NCBI GenBank assembly: GCA_003279615.1
Contig: QCHM01000004.1
Coordinates: forward strand, 1-64,000
Direction of reading: 5' to 3'
Source of the DNA: Prochlorococcus sp. AG-402-B19
GTDB lineage: Bacteria > Cyanobacteriota > Cyanobacteriia > PCC-6307 > Cyanobiaceae
Length of the DNA: 64,000 nt
The position numbers were made by a program, and so were the translations under genes. Positions 1,694 through 46,617 of the stretch are shown here, piece by piece (within the stretch, counting starts at the first letter, position 1; the number at the start of each line of letters is the position of its first letter). The notes below the pieces were generated by a model, which searched no databases, was not told where the DNA came from, and was given only the letters and a program-made list of their open reading frames with translations.

Positions 1694-3192
1694 TCTGAAA
1701 GTTGTTTCCATTCAGTAACCCCTTTAGGTTTATCAATTAAATCAATTCCAATATTTTTCAAATCAGCTCTTATTTTATCAGCGAGTAAAAAGTCTTTATT
1801 AGCTTTTGCTAAGGATCTACTCTTGATAAGTTCTTCAATTTTATTAGTGTCAATTTCAGTATTATTTTTTGGTTTTTCTTGATTTAAATTTACTTTTAAG
1901 CCTAGAACTCCTGCTAGCTCAGATATTAGCTCCCATTTATTAATAACTTGATTTAATTCATCTTGGTTAACTTCATTAATATCTTTCTCTTTTAAGAAAT
2001 TTATTAACTTTCTAATTGGTTGAGATAGTTCAAAAATAATAGATAAAGCTCCAGATGTATTTAGATCATCATCCATATATTTTTCAAACTTAGATAATAG
2101 TTTAAATGATTCTTTATCAAGTTTTTTGTTGACAGATCTTTTTAAAGGTTTATCTAGGTTGATTTCATTTATCTCTTTAGCTTTGATTTCATAAATATGA
2201 CCGAAAGATAGGTAATTATTTAATCTTTCCCACCCTTTTGAAGCAGCTTTTAGCGCTTCCTCAGTAAAATCTAGGGGCTTTCGATAATTAGTTTGTAACA
2301 CAAAAAATCTCAAAGTCATAGGTGAAATACCTTCCTCTAATAAAGATCTAATGGTTGTAAAATTTCCTAGTGATTTACTCATCTTTTCACCCTCCACATT
2401 AACCATTCCATTGTGAAGCCAGTATTTTGCTAACTCTTTCCCATTACAGGCTTCAGATTGAGCTATTTCATTCTCATGATGAGGAAATATAAGGTCTGAT
2501 CCACCAAGGTGAATATCAATACTTTCTCCTAATTCTTGTTTAACCATTGCTGAACACTCAATATGCCATCCTGGTCTGCCATTCCCCCAAGGAGAAGAGT
2601 AACTAACCTCACCTGATTTTGACTTTTTCCATAGAGCAAAATCAAGAGAATTCTTTTTACTTTCTTTTTGATTTATTTTTAATCGCCCTGCTGCATTATT
2701 TATCTGATTCTCAATTTCTCTTCCACTAAGTTTCCCATAATTTTTATGTTTATCTACTGAAAAATAAACATCACCATTTGATGAGTAAGCTACCTTTTTT
2801 TGTTCTAATTCTTCTATGAAATTAATAATTTGATGGAGGCATTTCGTTGCTCTTGGCATGCAACTTGGTCTAAGAATGGAAAGAGTATCCATATCTTTGT
2901 GAAATTCATCAATATTTCTTTCACTTAATTCATCAGTAGAACACCCTGTCTCTTTTGCTCGTCTAATAATCTTATCATCAATATCTGTGAAATTTTGTAC
3001 GAATTTAACTTCAAATCCTTTCCATATTAAATAACGTCTTAAAACATCCCAGTTAAGATAACTTCTTGCATGACCAAGATGACAGAGATCATAAACTGTT
3101 ACTCCACAGCAATATATTTTAACTTGATTAGGATTTAGAGTGATAAAATCCTCTTTCTTTTTAGATAAGGTGTTTGTGAATTTTAAGGACAA
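1690..3192 (-). CDS. cysS: Cysteinyl-tRNA synthetase
   Basis: CCGVTVYDLCHLGHARSYLNWDVLRRYL, HHENEIAQSEA and KMSKSLGNF motifs. Confidence 0.97.
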   Translation of the reverse strand: MSLKFTNTLSKKKEDFITLNPNQVKIYCCGVTVYDLCHLGHARSYLNWDVLRRYLIWKGFEVKFVQNFTDIDDKIIRRAKETGCSTDELSERNIDEFHKDMDTLSILRPSCMPRATKCLHQIINFIEELEQKKVAYSSNGDVYFSVDKHKNYGKLSGREIENQINNAAGRLKINQKESKKNSLDFALWKKSKSGEVSYSSPWGNGRPGWHIECSAMVKQELGESIDIHLGGSDLIFPHHENEIAQSEACNGKELAKYWLHNGMVNVEGEKMSKSLGNFTTIRSLLEEGISPMTLRFFVLQTNYRKPLDFTEEALKAASKGWERLNNYLSFGHIYEIKAKEINEINLDKPLKRSVNKKLDKESFKLLSKFEKYMDDDLNTSGALSIIFELSQPIRKLINFLKEKDINEVNQDELNQVINKWELISELAGVLGLKVNLNQEKPKNNTEIDTNKIEELIKSRSLAKANKDFLLADKIRADLKNIGIDLIDKPKGVTEWKQLSD

Positions 3193-3235
3193 TTTCTTAG
3201 ATAAAAATGTGAGAAATTATTGAATTAGTTAGCAA

Positions 3236-8647: not shown

Positions 8648-8687
8648 AAGACAGGGTGTCTAAACAATAAATATCTAGGTAATAAAA

Positions 8688-8702
8688 CAATAATGATTAT
8701 CG
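8688..8702. promoter_or_regulatory. Candidate Fur/Zur-family operator
   Basis: caATAATgATTATcg, imperfect palindrome resembling TGATAATnATTATCA; about 46 bp upstream of the downstream ORF start. Confidence 0.55.
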
Positions 8703-8738
8703 TTTTTATATCCGGTGTATATTATTTTACATTGATTT

Positions 8739-9536
8739 TTGTGCTGTATGGGCAGCAATACGTGGCTGATTTCAGGATCTCCAGGATGTGGTAAAACGAA
8801 TTGGATCCTTAATAATCTTAAGTCACACAAAGGTAGTTGTAGCTTTTTGCGTCTATCTGGTTACGGAGATATTGATCTACAGCAAGTAGCTTCTACAGAT
8901 ATTGACTATGCCTTTCTTAAAGATCAAATTCCTCAATTAATAGATTTATCAAGGTCCAGTGCTGACTCTATTTCGCATCAAGATGATTCTTTTATATTGA
9001 TTGAGCTCCCTCAGTTTCGAATTCCTAAAGAGCTTGGTTTGGCTGGAATTGATCCGCGCATAATCAAACAACTTTCAACTTTAAACCTCGAACCAGATAA
9101 ATACCTTCATTTTGGACGTGATAGGGAATTACCAATTAATGACACATTAAATTTCAATCAAATTGAATCATGCAGGTTCAAGCTTTATCGGAATGTTTGG
9201 GATCCACCTAGTCTGAATACCTTTTGGTTCGAGCTGGTTAATGGTGCTTATGGAGATGTTTATAGAGCTAAAGCCTTGATGAATATTCCCGATGGTAGAT
9301 CTATGTTCTTTAACTGGATTGTTAGCCAAAAAGGTTCGCAATTTATACCTCTTAATACTGTCTCACCTCCTAGTGGTAGACCTACAAGAATATCTGAACT
9401 TGTTGTTCAAGGGAAAAATCTTGACTTTGTACGAATTGAATCAACTATTCAGCTTTGTCTCTTGAATGATTCAGTTTTGGAGCTTCATCAAGCCCCTCTT
9501 AGAGATCCACAAATGCAGCCTAGTTATTCAACTTGA
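8739..9536 (+). CDS. Divergent CobW/P47K-like (G3E) P-loop protein
   Basis: Walker A LISGSPGCGKTNWIL; C-terminal half VWDPPSLNTFWFELVNGAYGDVYRAKALMNIPDGRSMFFNWIVSQ resembles a CobW C-terminal domain; no obvious CxCC motif. Start could be 8748. Confidence 0.6.
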   Translation: MCCMGSNTWLISGSPGCGKTNWILNNLKSHKGSCSFLRLSGYGDIDLQQVASTDIDYAFLKDQIPQLIDLSRSSADSISHQDDSFILIELPQFRIPKELGLAGIDPRIIKQLSTLNLEPDKYLHFGRDRELPINDTLNFNQIESCRFKLYRNVWDPPSLNTFWFELVNGAYGDVYRAKALMNIPDGRSMFFNWIVSQKGSQFIPLNTVSPPSGRPTRISELVVQGKNLDFVRIESTIQLCLLNDSVLELHQAPLRDPQMQPSYST

Positions 9537-9540
9537 CGAT

Positions 9541-10356
9541 ATGAAACACGCAGTAATTTCTTGTTTACATGCCAATCTCTCAGCAGTGGAAGCTGTGCTA
9601 GCTGATATTGATCAGCAAGAAATTGAGACCATTACATGCCTTGGCGATCTTGTTGGCTATGGTCCTCAGCCAAATGAAGTTGTTGAGCTTATTAGAGATA
9701 GGAAGATAGAAACCTGTCAGGGTTGCTGGGATGAAGACATAATTGATGGTCTTGATGCTTGTGATTGCAGCTATCCATCTCAGCTTGCAGAAAGGCGAGG
9801 GCATATGGCTCATCAATGGACAACCGAGAAGTTGACTGATGAAAACAAAGAATTTCTAGCTAGTCTTCCAACCTCGATTAGAAGAGGTAGATCGTTTTTC
9901 GTACATGGAAGTCCCAACAGTCAGCATGAGTATCTGCTTCCAGATATGGATGCATTCGCAGCATTAGAACGAGTTGAGATGAGTGGAGCCGATACTTTGT
10001 TTTGTGGTCATACTCATCTCCCATATGTACGTGAATTAGGGAATGGATCAATTCGCGTAAATATTAAAAATGCTTCCGATCGTGAAAGAGAAGATACAAG
10101 AATGACTTTACCTATTAGAAGAATTGTAAATGCTGGATCTGTCGGAGAACCTCGTCATGGAGGAGTAAATGCTACCTATGTTATTCATAACGATATAAAG
10201 AATGATGTTGAGATTAGAGAAGTTGCTTACGACATTGATCGAACATGTGAGGCAATTATTGAGGCTGGTCTACCCCATGTGTTTGCATGGCGTTTGAGGA
10301 ACGGTTTTGAATTTGCTGAACTGGCTGAAGATGCTAGCCACGTGTGTGAACGATGA
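9541..10356 (+). CDS. Calcineurin-like metallophosphoesterase
   Basis: MKHAVISCLHANLSAVEAVLADI...CLGDLVGYGPQPNEVV...FVHGSP...FCGHTHLPY...VNAGSVGEPR. The ORF-track start at 9466 overlaps the upstream CDS; start at 9541 preferred. Confidence 0.9.
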   Translation: MKHAVISCLHANLSAVEAVLADIDQQEIETITCLGDLVGYGPQPNEVVELIRDRKIETCQGCWDEDIIDGLDACDCSYPSQLAERRGHMAHQWTTEKLTDENKEFLASLPTSIRRGRSFFVHGSPNSQHEYLLPDMDAFAALERVEMSGADTLFCGHTHLPYVRELGNGSIRVNIKNASDREREDTRMTLPIRRIVNAGSVGEPRHGGVNATYVIHNDIKNDVEIREVAYDIDRTCEAIIEAGLPHVFAWRLRNGFEFAELAEDASHVCER

Positions 10357-11066
10357 TTGAACGTTGGGCACTTTTAAGTGGTCTTATGGGTGATCTTGAG
10401 ACCTATGAATTGATTCAAAAAGATTTAAAAAATACTCGCGGAGACATAACTCTTTTTGTTTTAGGAGACGTTGTAGGGCCAGATAAGAATTGTGATGCAC
10501 TTTTAAATAGATTAGTAAATCCTCATCGTGGTGATTTGAAACCTAACTGTATCTATGGCTGGTGGGAGGAACAATTATTGGCAGAATCAGGTTACCGTGG
10601 GGAGAGGAAGGCAGATGCTTTACGACTCAATAAAGGAGACGATGCTGTCACTGCTCTTATGAATGCTGTAGATCCATATTATTTAGGATGGATATCATCA
10701 CTACAATTTGGATTTGTAGAACTTGATTGTGGTTTGATTCATGGAAGCTCAAAAGATGTAGGAGACATTCTGACAATGCAAACACCTCCACTTACTCTTC
10801 TTGATAGAATTACCCGCCTTAATGTGAATAGATTATTCACAGCTAGAAGTAAACAGCAATTTCATCTTGAGTTGACTGATGCTGTAGTTGACTCAAAAGT
10901 AAAAGATTTAAATGGAAAACGAAACCAAGAACATACTCTTCCTAAACGTGCAGTGATAGGAATTGGAGCAGGGGCTAATTACACTCTTTATGACGTTGGC
11001 AGTGATCAGACTCACTTCTTAACGGTAGGTGATATGACTAAATCCAGAGGGAAAGGGTTCGCGTAA
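10353..11066 (+). CDS. Metallophosphoesterase-like protein
   Basis: ATGA overlap with the previous CDS; WALLSGLMGDLETYELI, FVLGDVVGPDKNCDALLNRL, LIHGSSKDVGD resemble degenerate phosphoesterase motifs. Confidence 0.6.
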   Translation: MIERWALLSGLMGDLETYELIQKDLKNTRGDITLFVLGDVVGPDKNCDALLNRLVNPHRGDLKPNCIYGWWEEQLLAESGYRGERKADALRLNKGDDAVTALMNAVDPYYLGWISSLQFGFVELDCGLIHGSSKDVGDILTMQTPPLTLLDRITRLNVNRLFTARSKQQFHLELTDAVVDSKVKDLNGKRNQEHTLPKRAVIGIGAGANYTLYDVGSDQTHFLTVGDMTKSRGKGFA

Positions 11067-11236
11067 CCATTCTTTCCGAAATAATTTCAAGGATAGTTCA
11101 GTTCAAAGCCTTATTGGAATCTCAAGATGTCTCGTCTGGTTGTCTAACTTTTTCCTGTTTTGGTCTAGCCTCTAATTTTGCTCGTAATCATCTATCTTAC
11201 TTTAACTTTTGAGCTAATTTTTTATAAGCATTGCAT

Positions 11237-11270
11237 TAAAAAAGCTGCAAATAATTTGCAGCTTTTTTAA
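11237..11270. terminator. Bidirectional Rho-independent terminator
   Basis: ttaaaaaagctgcaaataatttgcagcttttttaa, near-perfect palindrome with T-runs on both strands. Confidence 0.85.
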
Positions 11271-11284
11271 TGAAATTTGATTGT

Positions 11285-46510: not shown

Positions 46511-46569
46511 GAAAAACCCGAAAGAATCGGGTTTTTTTGTGTGTGAGGAGTGTAAGAGCAAAGGCTCTC
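46511..46569 (-). ncRNA. yfr1: Yfr1 cyanobacterial small RNA
   Basis: Reverse strand AGAGCCTTTGCTCTTACACTCCTCACACACAAAAAAACCCGATTCTTTCGGGTTTTT: 5' hairpin, single-stranded ACTCCTCACAC motif, 3' terminator hairpin; between guaB and trxA. Confidence 0.93.
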
Positions 46570-46617
46570 ACTACTTAATTCTAGCTGTTGTATTTAATTC
46601 TGAAATCTTTCGGTATT

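Follow-up and report, generated by a model that had tools for sequence, protein, structure and literature searches.

A conserved three-gene cassette behind a Zur-type operator, encoding a COG0523-like P-loop protein and two phosphoesterase paralogues: a candidate zinc-starvation module of cyanobacteria

Three adjacent open reading frames were read on the plus strand at positions 8748–11066 of the 64-kb window (the whole stretch of DNA analysed), in the order P-loop protein, MPE1 and MPE2. The first (8748..9536, +; 262 aa) is provisionally identified as a COG0523/CobW-like P-loop NTPase, which contains the Walker A motif GSPGCGKT and a CobW_C-like C-terminus and lacks CxCC and NKxD, while the second (9541..10356, +; 271 aa) has the calcineurin-like phosphoesterase fold and contains the motif series CxH...GD...GCWD...H...GHTH, where two ligands are replaced by cysteine. 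The third (10353..11066, +; 237 aa) is a degenerate paralogue of MPE1 which has lost most of the metal ligands. MPE1 starts 4 bp past the stop codon of the P-loop gene and overlaps MPE2 by ATGA, and the coordinates thus confirm both junctions described in the initial annotation. The imperfect palindrome which that annotation placed about 46 bp upstream of a CobW-like ORF was found as ACAATAATGATTATCGT (8687..8703, unstranded), 44 bp upstream of the start codon of the P-loop gene (8748), and is assigned as a Zur-type operator from its znu match and its conservation. A putative -10 element, TATATT (8718..8723, +), was read from the sequence and was not reported by a sigma-70 scan; the TGTATATT motif is kept in several relatives, and the operator appears to overlap the -35 region if this candidate -10 is taken as given. 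A hairpin resembling an intrinsic terminator (11234..11272, +) closes the unit, and is weak evidence alone, as two such sites were found against 1.7 expected in shuffles. The Rfam search gave no match within the trio. Elsewhere in the window, the small RNA Yfr1 lies on the minus strand at 46513–46571.

The Walker A motif GxxxxGK[TS] is present in all 48 members of the P-loop family. The CxCC motif, which is listed as common to all COG0523 members (Haas 2009, PMC2770081), occurs in none of these 48 as against 14 of the 14 neighbouring true COG0523 proteins, and the guanine-specificity motif NKxD is likewise found in 0/48 members and in 14/14 true COG0523 controls. CobW_C (PF07683) is matched weakly by the window protein (0.0043, below gathering), while 43 of the 48 relatives match it at E<=0.01 and several exceed the gathering cut-off; the family profile also matches the COG0523 C-terminus (profile match 80.6%). 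The AlphaFold2 model (pLDDT 85) retrieved YjiA entries alone at E<0.001, as local matches with a TM of about 0.3, and a PDB sequence search with the P-loop profile found nothing significant. Since CxCC and NKxD are both absent from the family, the protein is regarded as COG0523-like and not as a member of COG0523. The label CobW-like in the initial annotation therefore holds for the resemblance (CobW_C in 43/48, fold match to YjiA) and fails for COG0523 membership, whereas its reading of GSPGCGKT without CxCC is confirmed in the window protein.

MPE1 matches Metallophos_2 (PF12850) at 2.7e-21, and its nearest solved fold is 3rqz (Foldseek, 1.2e-20; 31–32% identity in the fold match), followed by 3qfm and 3qfn, both structures of SapH, which is an Ap4A hydrolase and phosphodiesterase. 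Nine residues (C8, H10, D36, C62, W63, D64, H122, H157 and H159) are invariant in 42/42 aligned MPE1 proteins, and the same residues are found across 88 ORFs, save one row without the GHTH region. The complete metallophosphoesterase motif set is not present, as DxH is replaced by CxH and GN[HY]D by GCWD, while the GD, H and GHTH motifs are kept; in relatives outside the family, the corresponding motifs are SD[IV]H and GN[HY]D. As aligned with these relatives, C8 and C62 are predicted to occupy metal-ligand positions. Family MPE1 forms one well-supported clade on a long branch, inside which the 23 picocyanobacterial MPE1 proteins form a single clade, and the three plasmid-borne relatives from outside the cyanobacteria whose sequences were read have the ordinary Asp. 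The outgroup phosphoesterases from Bacteroidota, Clostridia and Actinomycetota (L174, L175 and L176) carry CGC aligned with the CxC of the trio, and GNYD instead of GNHD. Conservation within the trio is highest for MPE1, with about 60% identity to the freshwater copies compared with 22–30% for the P-loop protein and 33–42% for MPE2.

The MPE2 profile matches MPE1 at 99.9%, while neither the window MPE2 nor any of 40 MPE2 members has a Pfam match. In these proteins the motif I aspartate is replaced by glycine (40/40), the Asn-His of GNH is replaced by Trp-Trp (39/40 and 40/40, respectively) and GHTH is lost, GD and one histidine being what remains. MPE2 is thus a probable pseudoenzyme, judged from its residues. 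The initial annotation, which spoke of two metallophosphoesterases, overlooked both the two invariant cysteines in the metal site of MPE1 and the probable pseudoenzyme character of MPE2.

The exact 15-mer AATGATTATCGTTTT has only two copies in the 1.55-Mb assembly of the host, one at this site and one in the znuA–znuC intergenic region, where about 0.02 chance copies would be estimated from base frequencies typical of the genome. The znuA–znuC copy adjoins zur, and contig C19 of the host (assembly G000) carries zur, znuA, znuC, a znuB-like gene and a CxCC-bearing CobW gene together. The trio thus carries an operator that matches the organism's own znu operator, as expected of a Zur regulon, the exact 15-mer being common only to znuA–znuC. 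The znuA cluster of the host (L152, contig C19) also encodes a WD40 protein and has a 105-aa ORF (2892–3209) that matches nothing in Pfam. Taken alone, a scan of the window allowing up to 3 mismatches is modest evidence (2 matches, both strands of one site, vs 0.3 expected), and the same-genus copies score only marginally when compared with a fixed consensus (p 0.04–0.1); the significance of the operator therefore derives from its conservation and the znu match, not from the window scan alone. A genome-wide count of two-mismatch boxes was discarded as uninformative (270 matches vs 348 in the reversed control).

Scanning relatives for the box, as the initial annotation had proposed, gave a constant core at the same-genus site and divergent boxes in most picocyanobacterial copies. 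The window and six other genomes of the genus which have the cassette at this site share an identical core, CAATAATGATTATCG, where the flanking bases differ slightly (TTTTT or TTTTC), while a seventh same-genus genome with the cassette (G020) has it at a different location, beside folE, with a different box. Most picocyanobacterial copies from the phylum-wide search carry a divergent box 41–78 bp from the Walker A codons, three carry it at about 165–170 bp, and a few deeper relatives are without it. Among 86 cyanobacterial loci, where the regions considered were those preceding the P-loop gene or the gene presumed to open its operon, a box was found at shuffle p<=0.01 in 47 and at p<=0.05 in 60; by our own estimate, roughly 2 and 8, respectively, would be expected by chance over two regions.

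The order P-loop > MPE1 > MPE2 is kept in 74/88 loci, and a 4-base overlap of the P-loop and MPE1 genes is found in 46/88. Across cyanobacteria the trio often lies near znuABC, COG0523/CobW, folE, hemB, thrS paralogs or zur. Neighbours counted among 89 loci include the CxCC CobW protein (39), a FAD-dependent enzyme (33), HemB (22), WD40 (19), ZnuA (19), FolE (17), a FUR-family regulator (13) and an ArsR/SmtB-type regulator (13), these raw tallies being lower bounds as many flanks are short contigs. On Trichormus plasmid A, thrS and hisI join the neighbourhood. A FAD protein, which is Lys/Orn-monooxygenase-like, was seen near the trio in L019, L025 and 31 other loci, and is divergently transcribed from the trio in Picosynechococcus. 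The MPE1 gene is patchily distributed, being present in 91 of 376 good cyanobacterial genomes sampled (about a quarter), and in one complete same-genus genome without the cassette (G011, L164) the flanks adjoin with about 194 bp between them; the cassette is thus dispensable and variable in presence within the genus. A phage or defence origin was rejected for want of specific matches in PADLOC, INPHARED, PHROGs and IMG/VR: PADLOC matched no defence family, INPHARED gave no tblastn match to MPE1, IMG/VR held no relative on viral contigs, and the PHROGs matches of MPE1 were general phosphoesterase families only. An apparent natural fusion of the P-loop protein with MPE1 (L081) was set aside as evidence of interaction, as the sequence, from a single MAG, looks frameshifted at the C-terminus of the P-loop protein.

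Transcriptomic evidence for a homologue comes from the published RNA-seq of Synechococcus PCC 7002, where loss of zur derepresses hemB-II, folE-II, G0131 and G0132 and TPEN induces them, G0131 being described as GTPase-like (Ludwig et al. 2015, PMC4628125). G0131 is the homologue of the P-loop protein, a truncated gene on plasmid pAQ7 (L170). Unrelated sequence introduced by an indel replaces the C-terminus of the P-loop protein, MPE1 and the N-terminus of MPE2, so that the truncated P-loop gene and an MPE2 fragment are the remnants in PCC 7002, whereas PCC 7117 (L171) has an intact trio in the same place. A perfect intergenic box, TGATAATTATTATCA, precedes the P-loop gene and is identical in the two strains. 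G0129 and G0130 did not respond to the loss of zur (PMC4628125), which fits the breakage of the trio without proving it, locus tags G0129–G0132 being assigned to features by order and description. The zur-mutant data for the trio locus come from PCC 7002 only, where the trio is broken, and this loss is offered as a reason why the trio escaped published regulon work on that strain. The fragment in PCC 7002 is also the sole clear trace of the trio in the literature searched (PMC4628125); the intact trio was not described there, which is weak evidence of absence as the search covered open-licence literature only, and a predicted Crocosphaera operon running from hemB to a metallophosphoesterase, with two genes between, is a possible trace by annotation only.

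The znuA–znuC match, the gene clusters and the PCC 7002 RNA-seq support the earlier proposal of a three-gene metal unit controlled by a Fur-family protein, and it is highly probable that the trio is under Zur control. There is good support for the operon and its Zur-type operator, for the zinc context, and for the trio's conservation and residue changes; for the metal identity, catalysis, substrate, protein contacts and loading step, we infer the following. When cytoplasmic zinc falls, Zur would leave the operator at 8687–8703 and the three genes would be transcribed together. The dinuclear site of MPE1 would contain two cysteines in place of aspartate and asparagine and would therefore be expected to favour a soft metal (zinc, possibly iron) with high affinity, while MPE2, as a non-catalytic paralogue, is probably a partner or a regulator of MPE1. 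The P-loop protein, COG0523-like and with the CxCC donor and the guanine-specificity motif lost, probably loads or remodels the MPE1/MPE2 pair, which would yield either a phosphoesterase activity or a zinc-transfer complex working under zinc scarcity. As a whole and with these qualifications, it is considered reasonably probable that the trio is a zinc-starvation module, repressed by Zur, whose P-loop NTPase helps to metallate an MPE1/MPE2 phosphoesterase. It is possible, as the initial annotation had suggested, that the trio metallates its own phosphoesterases, and loading by the P-loop protein specifically is put forward tentatively. A bolder version, considered somewhat doubtful, is that MPE1 is the founding member of a phosphoesterase family whose dinuclear centre has Cys ligands, with a dedicated pseudoenzyme partner and loaded by a COG0523-derived NTPase lacking its own metal site; if true, this would be a metalloenzyme specific to zinc starvation with a built-in metallation apparatus.

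Alternatively, MPE1 may be an active phosphodiesterase or nucleotidase of the ordinary kind, such as an asymmetric Ap4A hydrolase like SapH, with a role in nucleotide signalling or repair during zinc starvation, where the P-loop protein and MPE2 would be regulatory partners and metal loading incidental. The SapH structures 3qfm and 3qfn, nearest after 3rqz, agree with this reading, as does the strongest conservation of MPE1 within the trio, expected for an enzyme with a specific substrate; however, the changes of D8 and of the asparagine to cysteine are invariant and absent from the relatives examined, and the histidine of GNHD is replaced by tryptophan. With these substitutions the ordinary phosphoesterase mechanism would not be preserved, and this alternative is regarded as rather unlikely. 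Less likely still is a non-catalytic zinc-transfer or storage complex, where the Cys/His sites of MPE1 would hold zinc and the P-loop NTPase would hand it to clients such as FolE-II or HemB. The invariant Cys/His set and the repeated adjacency to folE, hemB and canonical CobW genes are consistent with such a complex, but the link to clients is one of proximity alone, storage has no need for about 60% identity across the phylum, and GHTH, GD and several active-site loops are invariant and enzyme-like; as the remaining ligands and surrounding motifs are intact, a mere metal store is disfavoured. An iron-homeostasis unit behind a Fur (iron) box is very improbable, since, although the sites of Fur, like those of Zur, are AT-rich palindromes within one family, the host encodes two FUR-family proteins and TPEN treatment of PCC 7002 also causes iron limitation, the operator matches znuA–znuC exactly, zinc genes surround the trio and the PCC 7002 homologue is derepressed in the published zur mutant. 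The evidence favours Zur where the initial annotation had left Fur and Zur open, its Zur side being upheld.

Surface ocean water contains little zinc, a scarcity with which picocyanobacteria have to cope. With the Zur-repressed module as the preferred reading, the trio, carrying the operator of the host's zinc importer and an MPE1 gene found in about a quarter of the cyanobacterial genomes sampled, offers a concrete zinc-starvation target with testable residues (C8 and C62), and two of its three proteins are without a curated family.

The trio shares its operator type with the cyanobacterial Zur regulon of PCC 7002, WH8102 and Anabaena PCC 7120, as well as the companion genes znuABC, COG0523, hemB, folE and thrS paralogs, and is not named among the characterised members of the published eight-gene WH8102 regulon. 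With the 3rqz/SapH metallophosphoesterases (PF12850, PF00149), MPE1 has in common the fold and most metal motifs, and differs in all members by CxH for DxH and GCWD for GN[HY]D, and by the linkage of its gene to the P-loop gene and usually also to the degenerate paralogue. Compared with the COG0523/CobW proteins (YjiA, ZigA, YciC and ZNG1), the P-loop protein has a shorter nucleotide-binding domain and no His-rich linker, but shares with them a Walker A domain followed by a CobW_C-like domain and a local fold match to Zn-bound YjiA, and the trio has Zur-type control in common with true COG0523 genes and is found beside them.
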